In this document: piece by piece, positions 27,080 to 39,170 of the stretch
How the letters are laid out: every line of letters begins with the position of its first letter
Numbering within the stretch: position 1 is the stretch's first letter
Source of the DNA: a virus
Length of the DNA stretch: 64,000 nucleotides
IMG/VR virus record: IMGVR_UViG_3300024503_000015
Span: 124,001-188,000 of that record
Strand: one strand, 5' to 3'
The notes under the pieces: generated by a model
Database searches by the model: none
Told to the model about the DNA's origin: nothing
What the model saw: the letters and a program-made list of their open reading frames with translations, nothing else
Position numbers and translations under genes: made by a program

Positions 27080-27528
27080 GAAACCTCAGACTTGCCTTCG
27101 GCAATCTTTTTAACATTAATAAATCCAGCACCTCTATCTGACATATCGATGCCCTCTTCGCTGGCTACATTTTTGCATAGTTCTCTAAACCAACGATCCA
27201 CAATTTCTTCATCAGGATCGCCATCAAATCCATAACCCGCTTGTTTTAATTGTACTACAAATTCATCGTTCCAGTCAATCTCGAAGAAACCATTCTTTAA
27301 GTTATCTTTATTGACATGTGTCTCCAAAACAGCGACCCAAGGTTCTCCTTTGGCTGTAGCACGGTCTTTTGGAGTCATTTTAGCCAATTCTTCTTCGCGT
27401 TTGGCTACTGCTTCTTTGGCTGTTGCTTCTTCAGCACGGGCAAGTGCTTCTGCACGTTCTTTTTCTAGACGTTCTTTTTCTGCTTCTAATTTGTCTATGC
27501 CAAATAATTTTTTAATAATTGCTTTCAT
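27076..27528 (-). CDS. Hypothetical protein with N-terminal coiled coil
   Basis: 150 residues from the ATG at 27528, preceded by GGGGGAA; a longer frame upstream lies inside the 2OG oxygenase gene and is not used. Residues 14-55 are a highly charged coiled coil (EAEKERLEKERAEALARAEE). The C-terminal domain is acidic (FEIDWNDEFVVQLKQAGYGF). No family recognised. Confidence 0.7.
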   Translation of the reverse strand: MKAIIKKLFGIDKLEAEKERLEKERAEALARAEEATAKEAVAKREEELAKMTPKDRATAKGEPWVAVLETHVNKDNLKNGFFEIDWNDEFVVQLKQAGYGFDGDPDEEIVDRWFRELCKNVASEEGIDMSDRGAGFINVKKIAEGKSEVS

Positions 27529-28195
27529 GTTTCCCCCATACCCGCGATTGCGGATAAAAAAATGCGTTTTCGTTTTGCCCCATATCCCAAATAATACTGC
27601 CCATTGTATTTCTTTCATTTAGTGGCAACGATTGAATAAAAGTATTTGTACTATAACGAACACCTTTAGTTATTGGTTTAACTTCGTGTACCCAAAGAGG
27701 ATCTGCTGGAAAAATCATAGCATCTCCTTTATTCAATTTAACTTCGTATCTGCCATTCCAAAAAGTAAATTCGCCACCTTCATAGTCGTCATTTAATGAA
27801 ATAGTACAACTGGCGTGAATCATTTCCTCCCAATCCACATGAGGATGTATCCATTCGCCGACTTCGTATTTCATAAGTCGGTGCATGTGGGAAAATCTTA
27901 AAGATTTTTTTAATGCTGTAGTGTGAAACGCTTTAAACTCTTCTAGATATGTTATCCAATCTTCGATAATTTTATTTGTATGATTATGTACTACTAAAAA
28001 GTTTTCTGTATCAGGAATTAACTCTACTCTTTTAAAAGTAGAAGTAGTCATTTTATTAGTTACGGCGTGTATGCAACTTTCTTGAACCGCACTGGCAGAA
28101 CGCAATTCGTATTCGTCAATTAACGAATTGCATTGGTCTTCTGTTAATGCGTTTCTAACAACAAAAATTAAATCGGATAACTTTATATCTTCCAT
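27512..28195 (-). CDS. 2-oxoglutarate/Fe(II)-dependent oxygenase (prolyl-4-hydroxylase-like)
   Basis: 227 residues. The iron-binding facial triad is visible as H119-V-D121 (HPHVDWE) and H170 (WVHEV), and R180 ten residues later fits the 2OG carboxylate anchor. Core strands FTFWNGRYEVKLNKGDAMIF complete the jelly roll. Aquatic T4-like phages often carry such enzymes and their substrate is generally unknown. Here the gene directly follows queE and lies near folE, so hydroxylation of a modified base or its precursor is possible, but protein hydroxylation is equally allowed. Confidence 0.85.
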   Translation of the reverse strand: MEDIKLSDLIFVVRNALTEDQCNSLIDEYELRSASAVQESCIHAVTNKMTTSTFKRVELIPDTENFLVVHNHTNKIIEDWITYLEEFKAFHTTALKKSLRFSHMHRLMKYEVGEWIHPHVDWEEMIHASCTISLNDDYEGGEFTFWNGRYEVKLNKGDAMIFPADPLWVHEVKPITKGVRYSTNTFIQSLPLNERNTMGSIIWDMGQNENAFFYPQSRVWGKHESNY

Positions 28196-29059
28196 TTATG
28201 TTCCCCACTCATTTTTAAAGAGTGGAACTTGTAATCTATCGCTGTAGCGTAAACCGTTTTTCATTGCTAGTTCCGCTACACGCCTGTTGTTAAGAGTATA
28301 GACACTTTCAACGCCACCCACGGGCATAAGATATATAGGACCGGTAAAACCATTTTCTCTATAAATGTCAGCAGTTTCAATTGCTTCCTCCGCATCTTCT
28401 TCTGTGGCCACTACAAATTTAAGATATGTATGACCGTATTCTTCGTATTCACAAACTACGTCTGGACGAATTGCTTCGTGACGTTCTTCACCGGAGCAAC
28501 TTAATTTAGCACTAACACTAAATGTAACTTCTCGCCAAAAATCTTTATCGCTGTGATATTTCCATGTGTGCAGATATTGCTTGAACTCGTCGGTGAGTTT
28601 TTGAGTACCATTCGTTTCAAATGTAATCTCTTTTAAGTTTGTCATTTTTGGATGGTCGAGCAAGTCTGGATACGCTCGTTGCCATCCAAGCAAAGGTTCC
28701 CCTCCGGTAATGACCAAGTGTTCGTCTCGCCATTCGTTGAAGGGTAGAATCTCTGCGATCCTGTCTGCGATGGCGTCTGAAGTGAGCATTGGACTAAGAT
28801 CCTTAAAGCGAGGATCCCAACTAGCATAACTATCACAGCCCGTAGATACCAAAGGAAGTTCTTCATATTTTTTATATGGGGTTCGTTCATGTTGGATTGC
28901 AATATCTTCAACTTCTGTACTTAGTTCACCTTTTGGTAATCCAAAGCCAGCACATTTAAAGTTACAACCAAATGTTCTCAAGAAAACAGACGGTACACCC
29001 ATGTAACGTCCTTCGCCTTGAATACTATAAAATAATTCTGCAATTTTTAATTTGCTCAT
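28196..29059 (-). CDS. queE: 7-carboxy-7-deazaguanine synthase-like radical SAM enzyme
   Basis: 287 residues. QueE converts 6-carboxy-tetrahydropterin to CDG, the second pathway-specific step to preQ0. Seen: IAELFYSIQGEG (7-18), VFLRTFGCNFKCAGFG (25-40), ITGGEPLLGW for SAM binding near 117-126, FETNGT, and LMPVGG near residue 245. The cluster cysteines are unusual: C32 and C36 (CxxxC) are followed not by the usual xxC but by an insertion, with the next candidate cysteine at C75 (STGCDSY). folE, the first pathway step, lies four genes upstream. Confidence 0.88.
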   Translation of the reverse strand: MSKLKIAELFYSIQGEGRYMGVPSVFLRTFGCNFKCAGFGLPKGELSTEVEDIAIQHERTPYKKYEELPLVSTGCDSYASWDPRFKDLSPMLTSDAIADRIAEILPFNEWRDEHLVITGGEPLLGWQRAYPDLLDHPKMTNLKEITFETNGTQKLTDEFKQYLHTWKYHSDKDFWREVTFSVSAKLSCSGEERHEAIRPDVVCEYEEYGHTYLKFVVATEEDAEEAIETADIYRENGFTGPIYLMPVGGVESVYTLNNRRVAELAMKNGLRYSDRLQVPLFKNEWGT

Positions 29060-29837: not shown

Positions 29838-30049
29838 TTGCATGTCTCCAACCATTTATCAAGAATATTTACAGCATCATTGAAATCGATACCATATACT
29901 TCTGCACTGATAACATTGTCTTTGATTTGTATATCAAACGGAACAGTTCCGTTAAATCGAAAATCTTCGGGAACATCTGTCTCTACAATATACTTGTGTA
30001 GATTTTTTGCTCTATTAATTAAATTAGTCGCCATGTCTACTGAATTCAT
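29834..30049 (-). CDS. Small hypothetical protein
   Basis: 71 residues, acidic, helix-strand pattern (MATNLINRAKNLHKYI; FDIQIKDNVISAEVYGIDF). It starts inside the folE stop (ATGA) and ends inside the next start, so it is part of a coupled run folE to queE. Function unknown. Confidence 0.6.
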   Translation of the reverse strand: MNSVDMATNLINRAKNLHKYIVETDVPEDFRFNGTVPFDIQIKDNVISAEVYGIDFNDAVNILDKWLETCK

Positions 30050-30744
30050 CTTGGTGCAAACTCCTGTTGTAGTTTAATGTTATCAAAGAACTCTTTCTTT
30101 GTACCAGCATCGTCTTTGAACGCACCTTTAAGTACAGTAGTTTGAGTTAATGAACTATGTGCCATAATGCCACGATTCTCACAGCATCCATGAACTGCCT
30201 GAATATAAACGCCAATATCACTTGCGCCAGTGGCCTTTTCAATTTCTCTGGCTATGTCGTTACACAATTCTTCCTGTAAGGTACCACGACGAGCGCACCA
30301 TTGCGCGATTCGTGTGTATTTTGACAGCCCAATGAGTTTTTGGGCGGCGATGATTCCGATGTAGGCAACACCAGAAACAGGCTGATGATGATGACTACAC
30401 ATACTACGAAGCTCACTCCTAACCACCAACATACCCTCATAACGATCTTCGCTATCGTTAGGAAACGCTGTTGCATCTGGTGCTGGTTCATATCTTCCTG
30501 CCATTATTTCGTTAAAGTACATTTTTGCTAATCGTTTCGCTGTACCGTGCGAGTTAGGATCTGTCTCTCTGTCAATAAGAAGTTTGTCTAAAACACTTTC
30601 AAATGCCTCAGTTGCTTCTTTGATTAGTTGTTCTTTGACTAGATCAGATTCGATGTATTCGCTGATGTTATCTCCTGCCCAGAATCTTTTTCCGTCTAGG
30701 ACCATCTTTTCGCGAATCGCTTGTGCTAAATTTTTTTCTGACAT
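30046..30744 (-). CDS. folE: GTP cyclohydrolase I
   Basis: 232 residues. It converts GTP to dihydroneopterin triphosphate, the shared first step of folate and preQ0 synthesis. Zinc and active-site motifs are SMCSHHHQPVSG (C116, H118/H119) and VHGCCENRG (C187, C188). The usual CEHH is CSHH here. Many phages encode FolE together with QueE for 7-deazaguanine synthesis, and queE lies downstream in the same run. It also stands beside the folA/thyA folate theme. Transcribed from a sigma70-type promoter with a short leader hairpin. Confidence 0.93.
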   Translation of the reverse strand: MSEKNLAQAIREKMVLDGKRFWAGDNISEYIESDLVKEQLIKEATEAFESVLDKLLIDRETDPNSHGTAKRLAKMYFNEIMAGRYEPAPDATAFPNDSEDRYEGMLVVRSELRSMCSHHHQPVSGVAYIGIIAAQKLIGLSKYTRIAQWCARRGTLQEELCNDIAREIEKATGASDIGVYIQAVHGCCENRGIMAHSSLTQTTVLKGAFKDDAGTKKEFFDNIKLQQEFAPR

Positions 30745-31211: not shown

Positions 31212-31380
31212 TCCAAAGTTCTTGTGCTCTGCGCTTATAGTCTTCTAATTCCCACACGGCTAATTTTTCACGAAATACTTCTTCGCTTAATCCGTGCCAG
31301 CCGATACAGTCTCCTGTAGGACTACGACCACAACCGCAAGTTCCAATTTTCTTTCCTTCTTCAGGTACTCTTACTTGCAT
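31180..31380 (-). CDS. Small CDGSH-like iron-sulphur protein (variant motif)
   Basis: 66 residues from the ATG at 31380 with AAAGGA upstream; an in-frame start further back lies inside the HIT gene. Residues 15-29 read CGCGRSPTGDCIGWH, a close variant of the CDGSH 2Fe-2S site (C-x-C-x2-S-x3-P-x-C-D-G-x-H) with ligand candidates C15, C17, C25 and H29, but one residue shorter and with IGW in place of DG(S). The rest is a charged helix. A redox or electron-transfer helper role is possible. Confidence 0.65.
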   Translation of the reverse strand: MQVRVPEEGKKIGTCGCGRSPTGDCIGWHGLSEEVFREKLAVWELEDYKRRAQELWNDSCTSGRSE

Positions 31381-31744
31381 TTTTATAATTTCCTTTACTT
31401 GGTATAACGTGACGAACCCCGCCACGAGGGTCTTCCATATCACCCTTGCGTCTAGGGATCATGTGTATATGAGGATACATTACTGTTTGGCCAGCAGTCT
31501 CGCCACAGTTTTGTCCGACATTAAAAGCGTCCCAACGTTCAGATTGGACACCATCGAACCCGAACTTGTATGCTCCTTTGAAACATTCGACGATGTTGGT
31601 AAAACGTTCATAGGTTGGCACAAAAAGCAAATGTCCTTCCGTAACTGGGTAGGCATCGTTGAAGACCCAATAGTCTTTTGTTCTGTACTCGATACTAGTC
31701 CATGGTGCTCTGCGTTCATCTAGTGCCCTTTCTAAATCAGTCAT
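31361..31744 (-). CDS. HIT-family nucleotide hydrolase/transferase
   Basis: 127 residues from the ATG at 31744, which overlaps the upstream stop (ATGA). The histidine-triad signature is visible as QTVMYPHIHMIPRRKGD with H92 and H94, and the N-terminal YWVFNDAYPVTEGHLLFVPT strand region fits the fold. HIT proteins act on dinucleoside polyphosphates, nucleoside phosphoramidates or nucleotidylated molecules. It is cotranscribed with a phosphoribosyltransferase, suggesting nucleotide salvage or signalling clean-up. Confidence 0.85.
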   Translation of the reverse strand: MTDLERALDERRAPWTSIEYRTKDYWVFNDAYPVTEGHLLFVPTYERFTNIVECFKGAYKFGFDGVQSERWDAFNVGQNCGETAGQTVMYPHIHMIPRRKGDMEDPRGGVRHVIPSKGNYKNASKST

Positions 31745-32292
31745 AACCAAAATTCTTCCCAAGGATAAACAAGCCAACAATCTTCTTGTCGCTTGTCTAC
31801 GGTCCAAACATGATAGTCTGGATCTTTAAACTCACTGCCGTAATTATGTGTTAATACAGCAAAACGAACATTGTCTCCCCATACTTGATTCCATGCTTCA
31901 TCGTTAGGAAAACAACCACTGGGCCAATCTTTCTTAATCCAATTAAGAGTAGATCCTTGATCGTTAATATCGTCTACAATTAAGATTTTCTTTTTAAGAC
32001 GTTCTAAATGTTTGTGATCGCCCCAAATGTGCCTTTCGTCATTGGGAACAACTCCCAAGGCATCTTCGGCCATCCAAAGATTACTTTCGCAATCGTTTTT
32101 ATTATCGCGAAGGCTGACATTAAGTGTGTGCATCTTAATGCCAGTATATTGACTTAGTAAGTTAGCCGGAACAAGACCACCGCGTGTAATACCTACAATA
32201 TAGTCAGGCCTCCAATTATGTTCAGACATTTGGCGAGCAATTTCTAAACATGCGCCTTCAACTTGTGACCAACTGTAGTATACTTTCTTCAT
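31741..32292 (-). CDS. Phosphoribosyltransferase
   Basis: 183 residues from the ATG at 32292 (ATGA overlap with the upstream stop). The PRPP-binding loop is ILIVDDINDQGST (103-115), and GITRGGLVPANLLS (34-47) matches the substrate/hood region of purine-type enzymes such as xanthine or guanine phosphoribosyltransferase. It may salvage purine bases from degraded host nucleotides or act on a modified base. The exact base cannot be told from sequence. Confidence 0.85.
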   Translation of the reverse strand: MKKVYYSWSQVEGACLEIARQMSEHNWRPDYIVGITRGGLVPANLLSQYTGIKMHTLNVSLRDNKNDCESNLWMAEDALGVVPNDERHIWGDHKHLERLKKKILIVDDINDQGSTLNWIKKDWPSGCFPNDEAWNQVWGDNVRFAVLTHNYGSEFKDPDYHVWTVDKRQEDCWLVYPWEEFWL

Positions 32293-32519
32293 GCAGTTAA
32301 CCCATAGGCCAATGATTGACATTCTTCTTTAGTCATAAAGAAATTATAAGTTTGTGTACCAACAACTTCACCGTCTTTAAGACTTTCTTGAACCATATCG
32401 ATACTAAACAAACCTTTAGGGCTTAGTACTTCGTGTTTCTTTAATGTTAGCCTAAAACCGGCGTGTTCTTTGACAACCATTTCTTTATAAGTATCTCTAA
32501 CTGATTCATGTAGTTCCAT
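32289..32519 (-). CDS. Small hypothetical protein
   Basis: 76 residues from the third of three consecutive ATG codons, which is best spaced from AAAGGAG. Beta-rich middle (HAGFRLTLKKHEVLSPKGLF), no cysteine apart from one near the C-terminus. Stop overlaps the phosphoribosyltransferase start. Function unknown. Confidence 0.6.
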   Translation of the reverse strand: MELHESVRDTYKEMVVKEHAGFRLTLKKHEVLSPKGLFSIDMVQESLKDGEVVGTQTYNFFMTKEECQSLAYGLTA

Positions 32520-32958
32520 CATCATCTCCTTTAATTGCGTCCCACGTTCTATATTTGGCTAATGCCTTAATATAGTCATCATACATCTTTTTTAACTTTG
32601 GATGCTTCTTTTCTAGTTTAACATCTCGCTCGGGAATTTGCAAGACTTTTTCAATTGTGTTTAACCTTTCTTCTAGGTCAACACCATTTAATACCATTCG
32701 ACCTTTAACTTCTAACTCCGGTGGATCGTTTTTGGCAACCATCACCGGATTGGTAGTAGGATTAGCCCAAGTTACATTTGTACCTGTAGTATAAGTTAAC
32801 GGCACAGATGTAGTGCCGGCTCCGGTTGAAATCGTATATCCACTGCCAGAGCCGCCTGTGCCGTTCGATACTAAAACACTACCTGAACCGGCACCGGAAC
32901 CTGCTATGCCGCCGGCTGTATTAAGTATTACGCTTCCGTGATTGTAAGTATAGCTCAT
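32506..32958 (-). CDS. Gly/Ser-rich protein with conserved helical C-terminus
   Basis: 150 residues in two parts. Residues 10-65 are Gly/Ser/Thr-rich (GSGAGSGSVLVSNGTGGSGS), like a fibre or disordered tether. Residues 75-145 are charged and helical (LNGVDLEERLNTIEKVLQIP; KHPKLKKMYDDYIKALAKYR). The mix suggests a virion-associated or scaffolding protein, but this is inference. The start overlaps the cupin gene by 38 bases. Confidence 0.65.
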   Translation of the reverse strand: MSYTYNHGSVILNTAGGIAGSGAGSGSVLVSNGTGGSGSGYTISTGAGTTSVPLTYTTGTNVTWANPTTNPVMVAKNDPPELEVKGRMVLNGVDLEERLNTIEKVLQIPERDVKLEKKHPKLKKMYDDYIKALAKYRTWDAIKGDDDGTT

Positions 32959-33376
32959 TTGGTATCCATTTATTATTAACGAGAAATCCCCATTCTCTCT
33001 TTTGCGGACCTGGCATAAAAAGTGTCCAACACTCTACGTTGGGATCAATTTCAATTCTATGAAAACTGTTGGCACTACAAATTCTAAAGTGTCCAGGCTT
33101 TCTCCATTTGGCAATTTCACAGACCTTTACTCCCTGGCTGTTAAATTGAGGAATCCATTCCCAATAGCCACCTTTTAGAATAAGTGTGGCATAAGGCCAT
33201 GGGTGATCATGCACATCATCTGGATCACCTTTATGAAACTTGTGTAAGAATACATTAAATGGAAACCATTTACGATCCTTTAAAAATAGATAATAACGTG
33301 TAAGTAACGGCTCGTCACAGGTACGATCCATAATAATACGCTTGCGACCGAGACGTTCTAACAGTTTTAATATCAT
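32921..33376 (-). CDS. Cupin-like protein
   Basis: 151 residues. HKFHKGDPDDVHDHPWPYAT (45-64) followed by a glycine turn (ILKGGYWEW), and a later FRICSANSFHRIE strand, match the two cupin motifs with histidines able to hold a metal. Cupins of this kind include dioxygenases, isomerases and sugar epimerases. It overlaps the glycosyltransferase gene by ATGA, so a role in making or changing a sugar donor or product is plausible. It is unproven. Confidence 0.7.
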   Translation of the reverse strand: MILKLLERLGRKRIIMDRTCDEPLLTRYYLFLKDRKWFPFNVFLHKFHKGDPDDVHDHPWPYATLILKGGYWEWIPQFNSQGVKVCEIAKWRKPGHFRICSANSFHRIEIDPNVECWTLFMPGPQKREWGFLVNNKWIPNELYLQSRKRNT

Positions 33377-34446
33377 ACAAGTCTTTCTAAGAGTCCATTT
33401 GCAGAAAAGAAATTTTCAGTTAAGTCTTGAGTTTGTTTTCTAAGTTGTGGTAAAAACTTTTCATAGTTATCCATATACTGGATAATCTTTGCACATATTT
33501 CTGGACGGTGTGCTTTATATGCTTCGAAACTTTCAGTCCATTCACTAGGATACTTAAAAGTATCATAGCCCATTTCACTGTAACTAAGTCTATCTGGCAC
33601 CATAGGAATAGCATCTACAACAGCGCCTTCATACCAACTAATCCCTAATGTCTCTTGTAAGTTTGCAGAGAACACTAATTTCGATTCGCCTAACAAGTTA
33701 TGATATTCATTTTTTGTTAGTTGTTGATCCTGACAGACTACGAACTCGTACTGTGGCAAGTGTTCTTTTAAATCTCTAAAAATTTCAACTTGCTTCTCGG
33801 GTGCGATGCGATGAGGGAAAAGAATTAAATCACGTTTTTTCATCCCTTTATATGGAGTTAATGTATCTTCCATATACTCCATTGGCCAACCTGTGCGTAC
33901 AATTTTTCCTTTATCGATATATGATGCTTTTGCAGTATCGTAATCTATGTTTAAAAGATTATGACAAAACATTTCAATATGGAATGTTGTAGCAAAGTAG
34001 TTATGATCTATAGCATGAAAGAAACTCTTTTCAGCATTTCTGACCCAAGGAGCATCGCCAATTAGACGACCTAAAAAGTCCTGTGGATCGTAACTACCGG
34101 CATGCCATAGTGCGTGAATAGTTACAGGAATCTGTAACAGTTCACTCATATACTTTAGGTTGATGATACCAGGGTGCCAAGCATCAGTAAAGATGAAGTG
34201 ATCATTAGGAGCCACTGATCCGGCGCAAAACAACCTACCCATTTGCTCAACTTGAGCAGACTTGTATATATTGGTGCCACCAAAATTAAGAAAAGCACCA
34301 GGAGTAGTGGCTGAAGGAATATCCGTAGGCCCAGATAAAACTTGAACATCGTGTCCTCTCTTTCTCAGGATAGCCGGTAGGTGGGTCTTCCACTGCGCTG
34401 TATAGCGTGTTTCTACCGGCTCAAGGTCTACTAAGTAGACGGTCAT
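33373..34446 (-). CDS. Glycosyltransferase, GT-B fold, GT4-like
   Basis: 357 residues. The C-terminal domain shows the retaining GT4 pattern: PHRIAPEKQVEIF (211-223) and an E-x7-E motif, E265 to E273 (ETLGISWYEG), for binding the nucleotide-sugar. The N-terminal domain supplies the acceptor side (FTDAWHPGIINLKYMSELL). In T4 the alpha-glucosyltransferase that decorates DNA also has a GT-B fold. Here the gene sits in one operon with a DpdA-like base transglycosylase and oxidoreductases, so DNA-base or small-molecule glycosylation should be considered besides surface glycan changes. Confidence 0.85.
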   Translation of the reverse strand: MTVYLVDLEPVETRYTAQWKTHLPAILRKRGHDVQVLSGPTDIPSATTPGAFLNFGGTNIYKSAQVEQMGRLFCAGSVAPNDHFIFTDAWHPGIINLKYMSELLQIPVTIHALWHAGSYDPQDFLGRLIGDAPWVRNAEKSFFHAIDHNYFATTFHIEMFCHNLLNIDYDTAKASYIDKGKIVRTGWPMEYMEDTLTPYKGMKKRDLILFPHRIAPEKQVEIFRDLKEHLPQYEFVVCQDQQLTKNEYHNLLGESKLVFSANLQETLGISWYEGAVVDAIPMVPDRLSYSEMGYDTFKYPSEWTESFEAYKAHRPEICAKIIQYMDNYEKFLPQLRKQTQDLTENFFSANGLLERLV

Positions 34447-34676
34447 TGGCGACCATTCCTGTAGTTGTTATTGTACCCGTTGTTATTACGGGGACGATTT
34501 TCAAATCGTCTGTCGTTGTTATAACGACGAGGACGCTTAGACGCCTCGTAAGCCTGCCAAGTTTTACTTTGGCGGTTATACAAGTCTGCCTCATTGTAAG
34601 GCAGAAGGTTGAATCTGCAAAAATCTAGCAGATTGTCAAGATCGTCAAAAATTTGAACGACTTCTTTTTTCATCAT
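34443..34676 (-). CDS. Small protein with Asn/Arg-rich tail
   Basis: 77 residues; two adjacent ATGs, either could start. Residues 1-45 are helical and acidic to neutral. Residues 48-77 are Arg/Asn/Tyr-rich (RPRNNNGYNNNYRNGRQ), a disordered tail likely to bind nucleic acid or to phase-separate. The start is 4-7 bases after AAAGGA. No family recognised. Confidence 0.65.
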   Translation of the reverse strand: MMKKEVVQIFDDLDNLLDFCRFNLLPYNEADLYNRQSKTWQAYEASKRPRRYNNDRRFENRPRNNNGYNNNYRNGRQ

Positions 34677-34684
34677 TGTTTCCT

Positions 34685-35080
34685 TTAGTATTTGATGAAT
34701 GAACCATTTTCTCCGTCTTCGGAGACCTCAATCCAAATCTCGCGATTTGGATACTTCTTGCTAATGATGTCATGTAATTCGTCAGACATCATTTCACAAC
34801 TCTTGTAGTCAAGGCTTATAGTGGCACCTTGACCATTATACAACGACTCGAGCCATCGTTTGAATTGGATGAATTCGATGTCCCTGTCATTGTGTTGCAC
34901 ACTGATCCACACCCTGAAATGAAAGATGTGGCGATGAGGGTGACCCAAAAACGATACGTCATATTCGTCTCCTGTTGCTAGATTAGGATCTGTTAGTGCC
35001 GCAGGATACTTATGGATACCTTCTTTGCGGAAAGTTACCCAGATCATTTTGTTTGGTCTAATGTCTTGTTTGATAATCAT
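34685..35080 (-). CDS. Probable divergent QueD/PTPS-like protein
   Basis: 131 residues from the ATG at 35080 (ATGA overlap). QueD makes 6-carboxy-tetrahydropterin and has three zinc histidines in the order H...HxH. Here GIHKYPAAL is followed about 25 residues later by HRHIFHFRVWISV, then RDIEFIQFKRWLESL in the position of the QueD DFxxLK segment, and a C-terminal REIWIEVSEDGENGSF in place of VWET. Order and spacing fit the tetrahydropterin-synthase fold, but overall likeness is weak. It would fill the gap between FolE and QueE. Confidence 0.45.
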   Translation of the reverse strand: MIIKQDIRPNKMIWVTFRKEGIHKYPAALTDPNLATGDEYDVSFLGHPHRHIFHFRVWISVQHNDRDIEFIQFKRWLESLYNGQGATISLDYKSCEMMSDELHDIISKKYPNREIWIEVSEDGENGSFIKY

Positions 35081-35616
35081 GTTGGTGTATCTTGAGTGTA
35101 CAAATCCCAATGAGTATACTTGTCTTTAGTCATTAGGCTTTGTAAATGATGTGTCCACACACCTGGATTTGTAGCACCCCAAGTTCGGTCATCCAGTTTG
35201 AGTGTGGCATTGTAGTTGAGTTGATTAATGTAGGGTAACTTGACACTAATCATAGGTACAAACTTGGGATATTCGTTATAAGCAGACTCTAGTACGCCTT
35301 CGATGTGTTCAACACCAAAGTCTAGAGCTACCCAATAGCCTGCTTTTAGACAGCCTATAATAACTTCGTCCCATGCTTTGTATTCTTCGTGTGAAATACT
35401 TTTAGGATTAAAACTTTGACTAGTGCCAAAGTAAATTTGTTTAATGCGTTTGTTTTCGTCTAAGTATGCTTGTGTGTCACCAGCAATACGTAGTATTTCT
35501 TCTAGCGGAGGAGTGCCTACTACAAATAGTGTATACATACCATAGCAAATAGTATGTTCGACTTCGTAGCCTGTAAAGTAGACAATGTCTTGTCTTTCTT
35601 CAGTGTTTAATCCCAT
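35077..35616 (-). CDS. Conserved protein of unknown function in the modification operon
   Basis: 179 residues, mixed alpha/beta (YGMYTLFVVG; AGYWVALDFGVEHIEGVL; FVPMISVKLPYINQLNYNAT). No cysteine cluster and no ATP-binding loop, so it is not QueC. Overlaps the QueD-like gene by ATGA and the dehydrogenase gene by 10 bases. Conservation of this neighbour pair across phages would be informative. No function assigned. Confidence 0.7.
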   Translation of the reverse strand: MGLNTEERQDIVYFTGYEVEHTICYGMYTLFVVGTPPLEEILRIAGDTQAYLDENKRIKQIYFGTSQSFNPKSISHEEYKAWDEVIIGCLKAGYWVALDFGVEHIEGVLESAYNEYPKFVPMISVKLPYINQLNYNATLKLDDRTWGATNPGVWTHHLQSLMTKDKYTHWDLYTQDTPT

Positions 35617-36497
35617 TTAATATAACCTCTGCTATAACCATTTGGACGATCCACACCATCCGCAAATGCTTGTTGCCATTCTGTGTTACGATTATAACCT
35701 TTTGTCCAGAAAGAATCAACCTCTAGTTTACCGTTTTCAATCATCCAACGTGCTTCAAACATAGCACCAATAAATTCTTCTGTTCTTGGACTTGGTTTAA
35801 CTGTAGTAACAGCCTTCCAAAGTTGTTGTTGTGCTTCTTCTTTACTTACTGCTTTACCAACAGCATCAATGATTACTGCATTGTTATTTAGATTAATGTC
35901 GGTACCTAGTTGATATTTTCCAGATAAATCTACTATCAAATCGTAACTGTCGGTAGTACCTAACAGTAACGCATCTCCCCAAAGTTCCTGATTACTAGAA
36001 CCTAGTACATCTACTTCAAGTTCTGGAAAATGATGTGCCAGGTTATTAAAAACTACCCATGCAAGGAAACCACTACCTAGGATTAAGCATTTACCATTTT
36101 GTCTACGTTCAAAAAGAGTATACGCTTGTCTAATACAGTTAACACCACAGGCCACTGGTTCTAAAATGTAACGTGGATGTAGTTCTAAAACTGTTACAAA
36201 CTCACCGTCACGACAGTTGTAATAATCTGCGTATGCTGGTTCGCCGCGGGTAGCAACATAATCGCCTACTTTAACACCTAATACACTGGCACCGACTTTA
36301 GTTACGATTCCTAGACCTTCGTGACCTTGCATGTGTAGTGGTAAAGGTCCAAAGTTGCCCTGCATCATATCTATGTCACTGCGACATACACCAGTCATAA
36401 CTGCTTTAACTTCAATTTCAGTTGACGTAGGTTCTGGCTTTGCATATTCTACTTCTTCAAAGTAACCTTGTCCAGTTGTTTGTAGACAGCGTGTCAT
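35607..36497 (-). CDS. Medium-chain zinc dehydrogenase-like protein
   Basis: 296 residues from the ATG at 36497 (ATGA overlap). Catalytic-zinc candidates are C38 (MTGVCRSD) and H59-E60 (QGHEGLG), with an LEPVACGVNCIRQ segment mid-protein. KCLILGSGFLAWVVF starts the nucleotide-binding domain. Shorter than typical 340-residue alcohol dehydrogenases, and the four-cysteine structural-zinc loop is missing. It may oxidise or reduce a sugar or alcohol on a base, together with the following Gfo/Idh/MocA enzyme. Confidence 0.8.
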   Translation of the reverse strand: MTRCLQTTGQGYFEEVEYAKPEPTSTEIEVKAVMTGVCRSDIDMMQGNFGPLPLHMQGHEGLGIVTKVGASVLGVKVGDYVATRGEPAYADYYNCRDGEFVTVLELHPRYILEPVACGVNCIRQAYTLFERRQNGKCLILGSGFLAWVVFNNLAHHFPELEVDVLGSSNQELWGDALLLGTTDSYDLIVDLSGKYQLGTDINLNNNAVIIDAVGKAVSKEEAQQQLWKAVTTVKPSPRTEEFIGAMFEARWMIENGKLEVDSFWTKGYNRNTEWQQAFADGVDRPNGYSRGYIKWD

Positions 36498-37372
36498 AGT
36501 TTTTCTATTCTTTCGTGTATCCAAAGGTCAATTTCTAACTGTACTTTCCAGTACTCGTCATTATTTAGGTTTTCTACAGCATCTTTAATCATATTTAGGT
36601 ACGCTTCTTCTGGACACCAGCCTAACTCAAATACATCTTTGGTATTATCTTGATTAATAAATGTAATAGCACTACGTTCAACAGTCATACTGCGCCAGTT
36701 AGCACGGCAGTTCCATTTAGAACCAAATCCAATGTGACACTGGTCGTCTACATCATAAGTTCCATTTGGGTTTACAGTACCATACTCTGTGCTTTCGATA
36801 TCTTTTAACAGCCATGATTGTATAGATGATTCGCCGTTAACTTTTTCTATGCGCCAGTCTGGATGTAGTGCAATATACAAACTTAATAAGTGTGGCATTA
36901 AGTCCCTACTAACTCCGCCAAATGCTAGTTTGCGTGTAGTAAACCAACTACCTGGGCTAGGAATACAGTTCTTTCTAATCCATTCGATGTCTACATTCTT
37001 TGCTACTTTAGCCTTTTCCTGTAATTCTGCAATATTGTCACGCCACATATTATTTTTAACCATCATAAATCGTGTGCGTGGAAATCTTTTACATAATTTA
37101 GCCCATTCGTTTCTATTAATCAGTCCAGGCTTTTCAATAAAGACAATTTTACTGATAGGAGCCAGTTTAACGGCTAATTCTAAATGCGTAAAATTTGGTG
37201 TGCAAATATGTACGGTGTCAAAAGACCCGTGAAGTAATATGGCTGGTTCTATACTAGGGAAGTCGGCATTTTTATTAATGTCTGTATCGACAGTACAAAC
37301 TTCATAACCTAATTGAGTTAGGACAGATTTATATAACTGTCCTATTCCCATTCCTACAACTAAACTTTTCAT
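36494..37372 (-). CDS. Gfo/Idh/MocA-family oxidoreductase
   Basis: 292 residues. SLVVGMGIGQLYK (3-15) is a variant NAD(P) glycine motif, VHICTPNFTHLELAV (54-68) and EKPG (80-83) are the family's dinucleotide and catalytic-lysine motifs. Family members oxidise or reduce sugars, inositols and related compounds. It overlaps the zinc dehydrogenase by ATGA, so the two probably act in sequence on one substrate. Confidence 0.85.
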   Translation of the reverse strand: MKSLVVGMGIGQLYKSVLTQLGYEVCTVDTDINKNADFPSIEPAILLHGSFDTVHICTPNFTHLELAVKLAPISKIVFIEKPGLINRNEWAKLCKRFPRTRFMMVKNNMWRDNIAELQEKAKVAKNVDIEWIRKNCIPSPGSWFTTRKLAFGGVSRDLMPHLLSLYIALHPDWRIEKVNGESSIQSWLLKDIESTEYGTVNPNGTYDVDDQCHIGFGSKWNCRANWRSMTVERSAITFINQDNTKDVFELGWCPEEAYLNMIKDAVENLNNDEYWKVQLEIDLWIHERIEKL

Positions 37373-37626
37373 CTATATGTTGGTAGTTCGTTAACACATT
37401 TAATAAGAGATCCGGATTGTTTGCCCGCTAATTGATGTAGCGCATAATCCGGAGAGGATACACAGGCTTCGTGCCCATTGAATTTATCTGCTAGGGCAAT
37501 GGTGTTGCCAGTTTCTGCAAATTTAATTACAAGATAGTAGTCGTTTGGACCCACGGCATCTGCCGTTTTATAAAACAAACCAAAACTTAATACTGCTAAA
37601 ACACCAATGCCTAGTAGTTTTTTCAT
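37369..37626 (-). CDS. Small exported protein
   Basis: 85 residues. A classical Sec signal peptide is visible (KK, then LLGIGVLAVLSFGLF, then TADA cleavage near residue 24). The mature part of about 60 residues has two cysteines (HEACVSS, LIKCVNE) that could form a disulphide in the periplasm. It lies between the DpdA-like and Gfo genes. A superinfection-exclusion or envelope role is conceivable. Function unknown. Confidence 0.7.
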   Translation of the reverse strand: MKKLLGIGVLAVLSFGLFYKTADAVGPNDYYLVIKFAETGNTIALADKFNGHEACVSSPDYALHQLAGKQSGSLIKCVNELPTYR

Positions 37627-39170
37627 TTTACGCCTTCTTCGAGTTCGTCAAGTTTAGCAATTTCATCATCGGTAAATTCTTCACCGTGCTCTAATTGTAC
37701 ACTCTCTTCCTCTACTTCGTCAAACAGTTTGGCAAATTGTGTACTTGCGTTTACAGTCTTCTTACCTACTGCTCCGCGAGTTCCAATAATACTTTGCCAA
37801 AATTTATTATACTCTTCAACGACTTTGTCTGCTTCTGCACGACTACTAGTAGCAAAAATGGCTTCTACTACATCTTTAAAGAATAGTCTATCAAACCGTT
37901 CTTCTACTAACATAGCAGGAACAATGCCCAAATCGTATTGACGATTGGCTTCTTGTACAGCATTAATGTGCATCCAAACATTATGGCCCATTAAGATAGC
38001 GTAACTAAAACTATCCCACGAAGTTTTACCTTCCTTGCCAATCTTGTTTAGATCCCCGGGCCCGTAAATACAAACATCTTTAATTTGAACCCCGTCAATA
38101 ATTGGACTATTGTCAAAGTTTTTAAAATGTCCGTCCTGTACTACTGCATCGCGGAATAGTCTAGTATCTTTACTATATTTTTTATTATCGATACTAGGTA
38201 ACATTCTATATACCCACTTAGTTCTGTCTTGTGTTTCTGTTTGAACGTATACTTGTCCGTTTGCAGTTGCTAAGAATGGACTAGCACAGTCGAAACTAAT
38301 TGTAAAGTTAGGATTGTGATACTTGCGTACAGCACGTTGAATGTCTGTTAATAAACAAGCCCACTCTAATTTACTAGTACCTAAGAAGTGCATCCAGTCT
38401 TGTTTGCCCTGTTCAAGTAATCCGTCAAATCGTAATGCTACTAGGCGTTTTAATACCAAGTGTACATCACACATATTCTGACCACCCATGGCCCAACCGT
38501 TAAATGCACGGTCACCGTAGACAGTAGGATCGCAGTACTTCTTCATTCGGTCATACCAATCGTCTGCATCGGTATGATTTTCACCTTGGAGAACGTTTAA
38601 GAATTTACAATTACCATTGCGATTGTTTACAAACCAATCGTTGTTAATGTAAGTACCTTGAACTGCTTCTGCGTATGTAGTAATGCCTGTGGCTTTTTGT
38701 CCAGCAGGGCTACGAGCTACCCAAGCAGGGATATCAAGACACATACCATAGTCCATTAGACTATCCATCCACTTAAGAACCTGTTCACGTTTCTTTTGTG
38801 CTTTAGGACAGTTGGGATTCTTCCAATCGCCTTCCCATACACCTTTACCAATTTGGAAACCACCGGAGTCGCCTAGTACCCAACTAGTACTGCGATCTCT
38901 ATTACGAAACATATCTTCGCTGTGATCAACTTTGTTAAGGTCTAGATTAGCATGACCTGCACTATACAAGCAGTGGTCATAGTAGAACGCACCTTTTTCC
39001 GGTTCTAAGTAGTTTAGACTTTCTACTCCGTTTTTAAAACTAGCAGGAACTCTTGCCGGATCAACATAGTTTCCATATCTTTGTTTACCTATAAAGGTAC
39101 TATAGAAACCGCTAGTTGCCGGCAAAAAGTATGCGTAGTCGTTTTGTGTTGCGGTTAAATTTTTATTCAT
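37623..39170 (-). CDS. dpdA: DpdA-like 7-deazaguanine DNA transglycosylase (TGT superfamily)
   Basis: 515 residues. TGT signatures are clear: LGDSGGFQIGKG with nucleophile/acid candidate D101, NVLQGE (192-197, as VQGG), GWAMGGQ (225-231, as AIGGL) and ISFDCASPF with second aspartate D294. The spacing of the two aspartates is similar to bacterial TGT (89 and 264 in E. coli). The TGT C-terminal zinc cluster CxCxxC..H is absent, as in DpdA, which inserts preQ0-type bases into DNA. The C-terminal 50 residues are acidic. With folE, queE and a QueD-like gene nearby, exchange of guanine for a 7-deazaguanine in phage DNA is the best interpretation. A tRNA target is the alternative. Confidence 0.82.
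   Translation of the reverse strand: MNKNLTATQNDYAYFLPATSGFYSTFIGKQRYGNYVDPARVPASFKNGVESLNYLEPEKGAFYYDHCLYSAGHANLDLNKVDHSEDMFRNRDRSTSWVLGDSGGFQIGKGVWEGDWKNPNCPKAQKKREQVLKWMDSLMDYGMCLDIPAWVARSPAGQKATGITTYAEAVQGTYINNDWFVNNRNGNCKFLNVLQGENHTDADDWYDRMKKYCDPTVYGDRAFNGWAMGGQNMCDVHLVLKRLVALRFDGLLEQGKQDWMHFLGTSKLEWACLLTDIQRAVRKYHNPNFTISFDCASPFLATANGQVYVQTETQDRTKWVYRMLPSIDNKKYSKDTRLFRDAVVQDGHFKNFDNSPIIDGVQIKDVCIYGPGDLNKIGKEGKTSWDSFSYAILMGHNVWMHINAVQEANRQYDLGIVPAMLVEERFDRLFFKDVVEAIFATSSRAEADKVVEEYNKFWQSIIGTRGAVGKKTVNASTQFAKLFDEVEEESVQLEHGEEFTDDEIAKLDELEEGVK

Follow-up and report, generated by a model that had tools for sequence, protein, structure and literature searches.

A 64,000-nucleotide stretch of viral DNA (the window; positions 124,001 to 188,000 of the 270-kb phage record IMGVR_UViG_3300024503_000015) carries a nine-gene operon that joins a DpdA-like enzyme with a glycosyltransferase (GT). 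All nine genes lie co-directionally on the minus strand between 32.9 and 39.2 kb. Running from DpdA to the cupin, they encode the DpdA-like protein, an 85-residue peptide, a Gfo/Idh/MocA oxidoreductase, a zinc alcohol dehydrogenase (ADH), a 179-residue protein, a PTPS-like protein, a 77-residue protein with an N/R-rich tail, the GT and the cupin. Homologues set the start of the zinc dehydrogenase at ATG 36497 (previously TTG 36524) and that of the PTPS-like gene at ATG 35080. With these starts, the eight junctions comprise six 4-nucleotide overlaps, one 10-nucleotide overlap between the ADH and 179-residue genes, and one 8-nucleotide gap. A preliminary description of the locus had all genes overlapping, which is true of seven junctions; the gap separates the PTPS-like gene from the N/R-rich gene. 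All nine genes it named exist, but it drew the system too narrowly, as FolE and QueE lie downstream in the same direction, outside its interval, and the operon is one part of a larger 7-deazaguanine cluster spanning 28.2–39.2 kb. Chance can be ruled out as an explanation of the operon because it is conserved in hundreds of contigs.

The 515-residue DpdA-like protein has no match in Pfam or PHROG. Because a search with PF01702 found no tRNA-guanine transglycosylase (TGT), we used profile–profile comparison with controls. Once its alignment had been extended with bacterial-island relatives, the family matched a bacterial TGT profile by hhalign at 90.6% (E 1.3e-6), in register over the DSGGFQ, QG, GG, HFLG and FDC motifs; twelve comparisons of either profile (DpdA or TGT) with unrelated families scored at most 0.9%. 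The catalytic aspartates D101 and D294 are invariant among 27 sequences. The CxCxxC zinc motif, present in four of the six bacterial TGTs compared, is absent. By its sequence, then, the protein is a divergent TGT relative and DpdA-like, as first proposed. We label the TGT-like proteins of phages X1, ACP17 and BUCT-ZZ01 DpdA2-like; hhalign scored the window family against this set at 4.6% initially and at 95.7% once DpdAs from bacterial islands were added.

The EX7E motif that first marked the GT is intact: E265 and E273, together with an R213/K218 pair, are conserved in 32–33 of 33 relatives. An AlphaFold2 model (pLDDT 76, pTM 0.75) matched the GT-B enzymes GlgM (6tvp, 8.6e-7), BshA (5d01, 7.7e-6) and T4 AGT with DNA (1ya6, 9.2e-5) in Foldseek, with PglA also among the matches; such structural matches alone do not prove a substrate. 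No Pfam Glycos_transf_1 match to the window GT passed the cut-off, and the BUCT-ZZ01 homologue scores 26.5 bits with PF00534, for which the cut-off is 26.4. Nor does the window GT match the T4-type AGT or BGT families, its likeness to AGT being at fold level only. Model and motif together indicate that this 357-residue protein is a GT-B/GT4-type glycosyltransferase with a GT-B fold and an EX7E donor-site motif. A second GT4 is common to the cyanophage BUCT-ZZ01 (L088:5001-6344) and an alphaproteobacterial island (L267:14278-15534), with 32% identity and in a 7-deazaguanine context in both, and is also found in phage X1, away from the cluster. It possibly adds a second sugar; we looked for this BUCT-ZZ01 enzyme in the window genome and did not find it.

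Across unrelated genomes, the GT is associated with DpdA and its partners. Among annotated phages, GT relatives occur in 20 records that form six groups. DpdA, GT and PTPS-like genes are directly consecutive, in that order, in Paride and PA5oct, and the Paride group also carries the same Gfo/Idh, ADH and 179-residue proteins. Phosso has the PTPS-like gene and the GT followed by FolE and QueE, with DpdA elsewhere, and in ACP17, X1 and BUCT-ZZ01 the GT lies with FolE, QueE, a PTPS-like protein and a DpdA from a different, DpdA2-like subfamily. The weakest case, with 25% GT identity, is Xanthomonas phage PhiXhv-12 (one inspected record of four in its group), in which Gat-QueC, a PIG-L deacetylase, the GT and Gfo/Idh stand in a row (L087:9669-13755), suggesting an amino-sugar on 7-deazaguanine. 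The Gat-QueC fusion of this phage is annotated as an aminotransferase. Gene order varies among these phages and their DpdAs come from two subfamilies, so common descent of a single locus does not account for the association.

Scanning viral contigs with the window GT yielded at least 599 candidate stretches, as did one other query; a second scan used the BUCT-ZZ01 GT. We fetched the best 80 loci from the first scan (the nearest loci) and 80 from the second, which represent a sister clade; a third scan with Gfo/Idh alone gave 80 more. All 160 loci from the two GT queries hold 7-deazaguanine genes, and every well-covered one has DpdA (28/28 and 38/38). DpdA, the 179-residue and PTPS-like proteins, FolE and QueE recur in the nearest loci, and the sister clade shares this core. 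The loci found through Gfo/Idh all have an adjacent ADH, and 78 of the 80 have DpdA; one of the other two starts at the Gfo/Idh gene, and the second (L205) has 2.6 kb upstream without DpdA. Co-occurrence with dpdA, which we ran as a refutation check, was therefore confirmed for the GT and the oxidoreductases alike. Using the GTs of X1 and PhiXhv as queries brought up no relatives, and that of ACP17 retrieved ACP17 alone; we read these empty scans as a limit, because single-protein scans reach close relatives only. BUCT-ZZ01 (L088) has a DpdA2-like enzyme and environmental relatives of its GT (L100–L179) have the window-type DpdA; DpdA appears to have been exchanged under a constant pair of GT and PTPS-like protein.

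The association extends to bacteria. Sixteen cellular contigs hold the GT, several of them contigs of metagenome-assembled genomes that resemble phage loci. Of seven alphaproteobacterial genomes, six have the GT adjoining DpdA and a Vut_1/TIGR00697-like queuosine-precursor transporter (Pfam scores for four of the transporters were weak to moderate, and the other two are nearly identical in sequence); three of the seven have the PTPS-like protein. No other observation argues as well as this minimal unit (importer-like protein, GT, DpdA) that the GT would serve the inserted base. We found no description of the island type. Compact transporter-like/GT/DpdA units were seen in the alphaproteobacterial loci L264, L265, L267, L268, L269, L271 and L273. 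A phage integrase gene lies nearby in the Shimia locus; the L267 stretch holds a phage integrase gene and the second GT4.

Two further proteins are core partners of the GT. The 131-residue PTPS-like protein belongs to phrog_17812 (6.5e-34), has homologues of 37–66% identity in Phosso, Paride, ACP17, X1 and BUCT-ZZ01, and retains three invariant histidines (H23, H49 and H51), E96 and E121, with SCE and ED motifs. It matches neither PF01242 nor TIGR03367. By hhalign, its profile reached 54% with QueD, over the C-terminal part only, and at most 2% with other families; the QueD profile also scored 10% with the 179-residue family. The earlier label 'QueD-like' may fit as a mark of remote similarity, but the canonical QueD is encoded elsewhere in the genome, beyond the window (G000:C1:209577-210104; PF01242, 93.9 bits); the operon protein is a second, divergent PTPS-like protein. 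The 179-residue protein is present in 72 of the 80 nearest loci, with homologues in Paride (Par_169, 41% identity) and ACP17 (26%). Its AlphaFold2 model has a pLDDT of 75, and the best PDB structural match was not below E 0.065; sequence-profile searches of PDB with the DpdA, GT, PTPS-like and 179-residue alignments returned nothing significant. The probable role of the PTPS-like and 179-residue proteins is to ready the acceptor or assist the GT, which provides candidate functions for two conserved families that had none. Loci L109, L240 and L242 each have two copies of the 179-residue family, flanking the Gfo/Idh–ADH pair in L240 and L242.

The remaining small proteins vary in how widely they are kept. 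The 77-residue protein recurs in 78 of the 80 nearest loci (55/80 in set C and 45/80 in set B). The cupin, correctly named at the outset, is in 73 of the nearest loci and in 3 of 80 in the sister clade. The 85-residue peptide had been described as exported and does have an apparent signal sequence, but it is rare, occurring in 3 of the 80 nearest loci and in 11 loci in all.

Both oxidoreductases are what they were first taken to be, exceeding their Pfam cut-offs (Gfo/Idh/MocA, PF01408, 25.8 bits, 1.9e-5, cut-off 24; zinc ADH, PF08240, 46.4 bits, 5.1e-12, cut-off 23.5). Their assignment to the operon core and to 7-deazaguanine chemistry fared less well. The pair occurs in only 7 or 8 of the 80 nearest GT loci. 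Dereplicating complete loci at 95% GT identity left 103 (63 from the window's clade and 40 from the sister clade); ADH and Gfo/Idh co-occur in 29 of 29, and the pair is found in 29 of the 103. Within the window's clade, 29 loci have this pair, 9 have UDP-glucose dehydrogenase and 26 have none. In the sister clade, a GalE-type epimerase is in the cluster in 38 of the 40 loci (one example scores 297.8 bits against the TIGR01179 equivalog cut-off of 262.3) and UDP-glucose dehydrogenase in 8, while some loci have a nucleotidyltransferase or a DegT-type aminotransferase. Gfo/Idh and GalE share one dereplicated locus, a near-exclusivity to which clade and query choice contribute.

Placement of GalE beside the sister-clade GT points to nucleotide-sugar donors. 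Because that clade puts GalE, and sometimes UDP-glucose dehydrogenase, next to the GT, the oxidoreductases are likelier to tailor a sugar than to reduce 7-deazaguanine. Gfo/Idh and zinc dehydrogenase are most likely an optional module for this purpose, and we read the variable genes as exchangeable modules that determine the donor sugar. We sought an NAD-dependent epimerase in the window genome and found none. With neither a second GT nor such an epimerase there, this phage probably draws its donor from the nucleotide sugars of the host, which the Gfo/Idh–ADH pair may possibly alter. Reduction of preQ0 by the oxidoreductases was considered and set aside, as the pair is optional and seems to alternate with sugar-nucleotide genes, although this evidence is weak.

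Table 1 Genes of the operon and the surrounding 7-deazaguanine cluster, in window coordinates.
Feature	Position	Strand	Basis
Putative DpdA-like DNA-guanine transglycosylase, 515 residues, TGT superfamily	37623..39170	-	Profile comparison, invariant D101/D294
85-residue peptide, apparent signal sequence, not conserved	37369..37626	-	Locus counts
Gfo/Idh/MocA oxidoreductase, 292 residues, accessory	36494..37372	-	PF01408
Zinc alcohol dehydrogenase-type oxidoreductase, 296 residues, accessory	35607..36497	-	PF08240
Conserved 179-residue protein, core partner of GT	35077..35616	-	LKIDDxxFxxTNPGVW motif
131-residue PTPS-like (QueD-like) protein, core partner of GT	34685..35080	-	phrog_17812
77-residue protein, N/R-rich tail, between PTPS-like gene and GT	34443..34676	-	Locus conservation
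GT-B/GT4-type glycosyltransferase, 357 residues, EX7E intact	33373..34446	-	Motif and AlphaFold2 model
Cupin, 151 residues, frequent, not universal	32921..33376	-	phrog_4786, 4.6e-35
Purine-type phosphoribosyltransferase	31741..32322	-	PF00156, 2.2e-13
HIT-domain protein, frequent neighbour	31361..31807	-	PF01230, 1.1e-7; 41/80 loci
GTP cyclohydrolase I (FolE), which begins 7-deazaguanine synthesis	30046..30744	-	PF01227, 1.4e-38
QueE-type radical SAM 7-carboxy-7-deazaguanine synthase	28196..29059	-	PF04055, 4.9e-5; TIGR03365, 3.4e-13 (below curated cut-off)

FolE, QueD and QueE are all phage-encoded, the first and last within the window (Table 1). FolE is 59% identical in Phosso, and QueE is 48.6% identical to that of BUCT-ZZ01; in the window QueE, an insertion of about 40 residues separates the second cysteine of the presumed cluster motif from the third. 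No QueC above the curated cut-off is present in the window genome or in most relatives, and no Gat-QueC fusion was found in the window phage. A QueC-like candidate, a 199-residue PP-loop protein, scores 18.7 bits, below the cut-off of 22. Its gene (L004:1069-1668, same phage genome) overlaps a 165-residue gene, and the protein has SGGLDS and a C-terminal CGRCDTC. The phosphoribosyltransferase recurs in these clusters, including those of Paride and BUCT-ZZ01, and could salvage guanine released by DpdA. Next to the cupin, positions 32506–32958 encode a 150-residue protein that is rich in glycine and serine and has a C-terminal segment that is conserved; small proteins like it are found repeatedly in these loci, one of them in the Paride cluster (Par_118). 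Directly downstream of QueE is a 2OG-Fe(II) oxygenase gene (27512–28195), present in only 2 of the 80 nearest loci.

We consider it probable that this is a phage DNA-hypermodification operon making a glycosylated 7-deazaguanine, with donor-tailoring genes that vary between phages. FolE, QueD and QueE lead to 7-carboxy-7-deazaguanine by an established pathway, and the phage's FolE, its canonical QueD from elsewhere in the genome and its QueE would supply that compound. Host QueC or the divergent phage PP-loop protein would probably convert it to preQ0. DpdA would swap guanine in phage DNA for the 7-deazaguanine, and the GT, dependent on a nucleotide sugar, would then add a sugar to the side chain of the base in DNA. 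A further side-chain change would be needed because a nitrile cannot directly accept a glycosyl group, and the PTPS-like and 179-residue proteins are candidates for making it before sugar transfer. We also lean towards a broader reading in which widespread phages and some bacterial islands glycosylate 7-deazaguanine after insertion, the sugar being made lineage-specific by modules of GalE, UDP-glucose dehydrogenase, Gfo/Idh with zinc dehydrogenase, or PIG-L deacetylase.

As a gene association, the glycosylated 7-deazaguanine interpretation is well supported; its chemistry is predicted, and several points weigh against it. The acceptor atom is its weakest link, as preQ0 offers no obvious glycosyl acceptor, and the inserted base is itself uncertain because most of these phages have no QueC above the cut-off. 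Gene content is what predicts a glycosylated product, and we infer DNA rather than tRNA as the DpdA substrate by family analogy. The search of phage genomes with PF01702 (Pfam TGT) gave no match to the DpdA-like protein at E ≤ 10. In roughly one dereplicated locus in four, the cluster lacks any sugar-nucleotide gene, and near-identical IMG/VR loci are not independent. The initial proposal of a hypermodified 7-deazaguanine with a GT has nonetheless gained from the linkage and survived the refutation check, with several gene roles corrected and its product still a prediction.

Other arrangements of the same enzymes would lead elsewhere. The GT could glycosylate the free 7-deazaguanine base or its nucleotide, leaving DpdA to insert a sugar-bearing base. 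Such an order would suit a GT that always accompanies DpdA and base-synthesis genes, and the bacterial pairing of a queuosine-precursor-type transporter with GT and DpdA. We nevertheless judge it unlikely: known TGT and DpdA enzymes insert small bases that are decorated later (Hutinet 2019, PMC6884629; QTMAN/QTGAL, PMC12518689), and T4 AGT, which acts on DNA, is among the structural matches of the GT, with the reservation that a GT-B match is no proof of substrate. Modification of tRNA, in which the TGT-like enzyme and the GT would make a glycosylated queuosine-like base comparable to animal galQ and manQ, draws on membership of the TGT superfamily and on the fact that the glycosylated 7-deazaguanines known to us are all in tRNA (PMC12518689). 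Against this stand the missing CxCxxC motif, the action of the phage TGT relatives DpdA and DpdA2 on DNA (PMC6884629) and the absence of any tRNA gene found in the window, and we give tRNA modification little credence.

The preliminary description had offered synthesis of a modified sugar for surface glycans as its alternative. Spelled out, the GT, cupin, Gfo/Idh and ADH would make or alter a sugar destined for host lipopolysaccharide or capsule, and dpdA would be a neighbour by accident. GT4 enzymes often act on glycans, and enzymes of these kinds are typical of phage polysaccharide clusters as treated in the main text of Iyer 2021 (PMC7824862). However, the GT and Gfo/Idh homologues lie with DpdA in every locus or almost every one, across unrelated genomes and despite rearrangement of the genes, beside preQ0-pathway rather than lipopolysaccharide genes; the bacterial GT sits with a queuosine-precursor-type transporter; and among the recurrent neighbours of the clusters we recognised neither a polysaccharide polymerase or flippase nor another GT family. 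This alternative now seems very improbable, if a shade less so than tRNA modification. Least credible of all is a GT acting on some other modified base, such as a hydroxymethylpyrimidine, so that two DNA modifications would lie side by side. Phage DNA glycosylation is not known on any bases but pyrimidines. PA5oct is also predicted, in the main text of Iyer 2021, to carry several DNA-modification systems (PMC7824862). Yet no pyrimidine hydroxymethylase gene was recognised among recurrent neighbours, and the minimal bacterial units consist of DpdA, GT and queuosine-precursor-type transporter.

If correct, glycosylation of 7-deazaguanine would define a novel class of hypermodified DNA, one that probably affects resistance to restriction and CRISPR and is carried by at least several hundred environmental viral contigs. 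The full gene set in culturable Pseudomonas phages such as Paride makes it directly testable. To our knowledge, sugared DNA bases are all pyrimidines and the 7-deazaguanines of DNA carry only small groups. A literature search, which covered few subscription papers, found no report of glycosylated 7-deazaguanine in phage DNA, making novelty likely but not certain.

The closest known systems are the DpdA and DpdA2 phages defined by Hutinet 2019 (PMC6884629), a text in which the word stem 'glycosyl' does not appear. Those phages likewise combine a TGT-superfamily DpdA with FolE, QueD and QueE in one genome and exchange bases in DNA. Unlike them, the window DpdA is divergent and without a Pfam TGT match, canonical QueC is mostly missing, and the clusters hold conserved GT, PTPS-like, 179-residue and sugar-nucleotide genes. 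Gat-QueC fusion clusters, on the archaeosine route (Hutinet 2019), are resembled by PhiXhv-12, whose fusion adjoins a PIG-L deacetylase, a distant GT homologue and Gfo/Idh; the window phage differs in that we found no fusion of this kind in it. The main text of Iyer 2021 (PMC7824862) predicts a deazaguanine system in the jumbo phages PA5oct and Motura, and the Paride group, to which PA5oct belongs, has the same DpdA, GT, PTPS-like, Gfo/Idh, ADH and 179-residue proteins as the window; that main text, in contrast, discusses glycosyltransferases for polysaccharide clusters alone. There is no mention of deazaguanine in the Paride paper (PMC10761892). QTMAN and QTGAL attach mannose or galactose to queuine, a 7-deazaguanine base, in tRNA (PMC12518689), but they are animal enzymes acting on queuosine, and later queuosine genes were not seen in the phage clusters. 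T4 AGT is, like our prediction for the window GT, a phage enzyme that sugars DNA bases, and the GT-B fold is matched by the model; it differs in acting on 5-hydroxymethylcytosine, in sharing only about 10% identity and in that no hydroxymethylase is recognised in the clusters described here. If the proposal holds, the product of these clusters would be the purine counterpart of T4 glucosyl-hydroxymethylcytosine.

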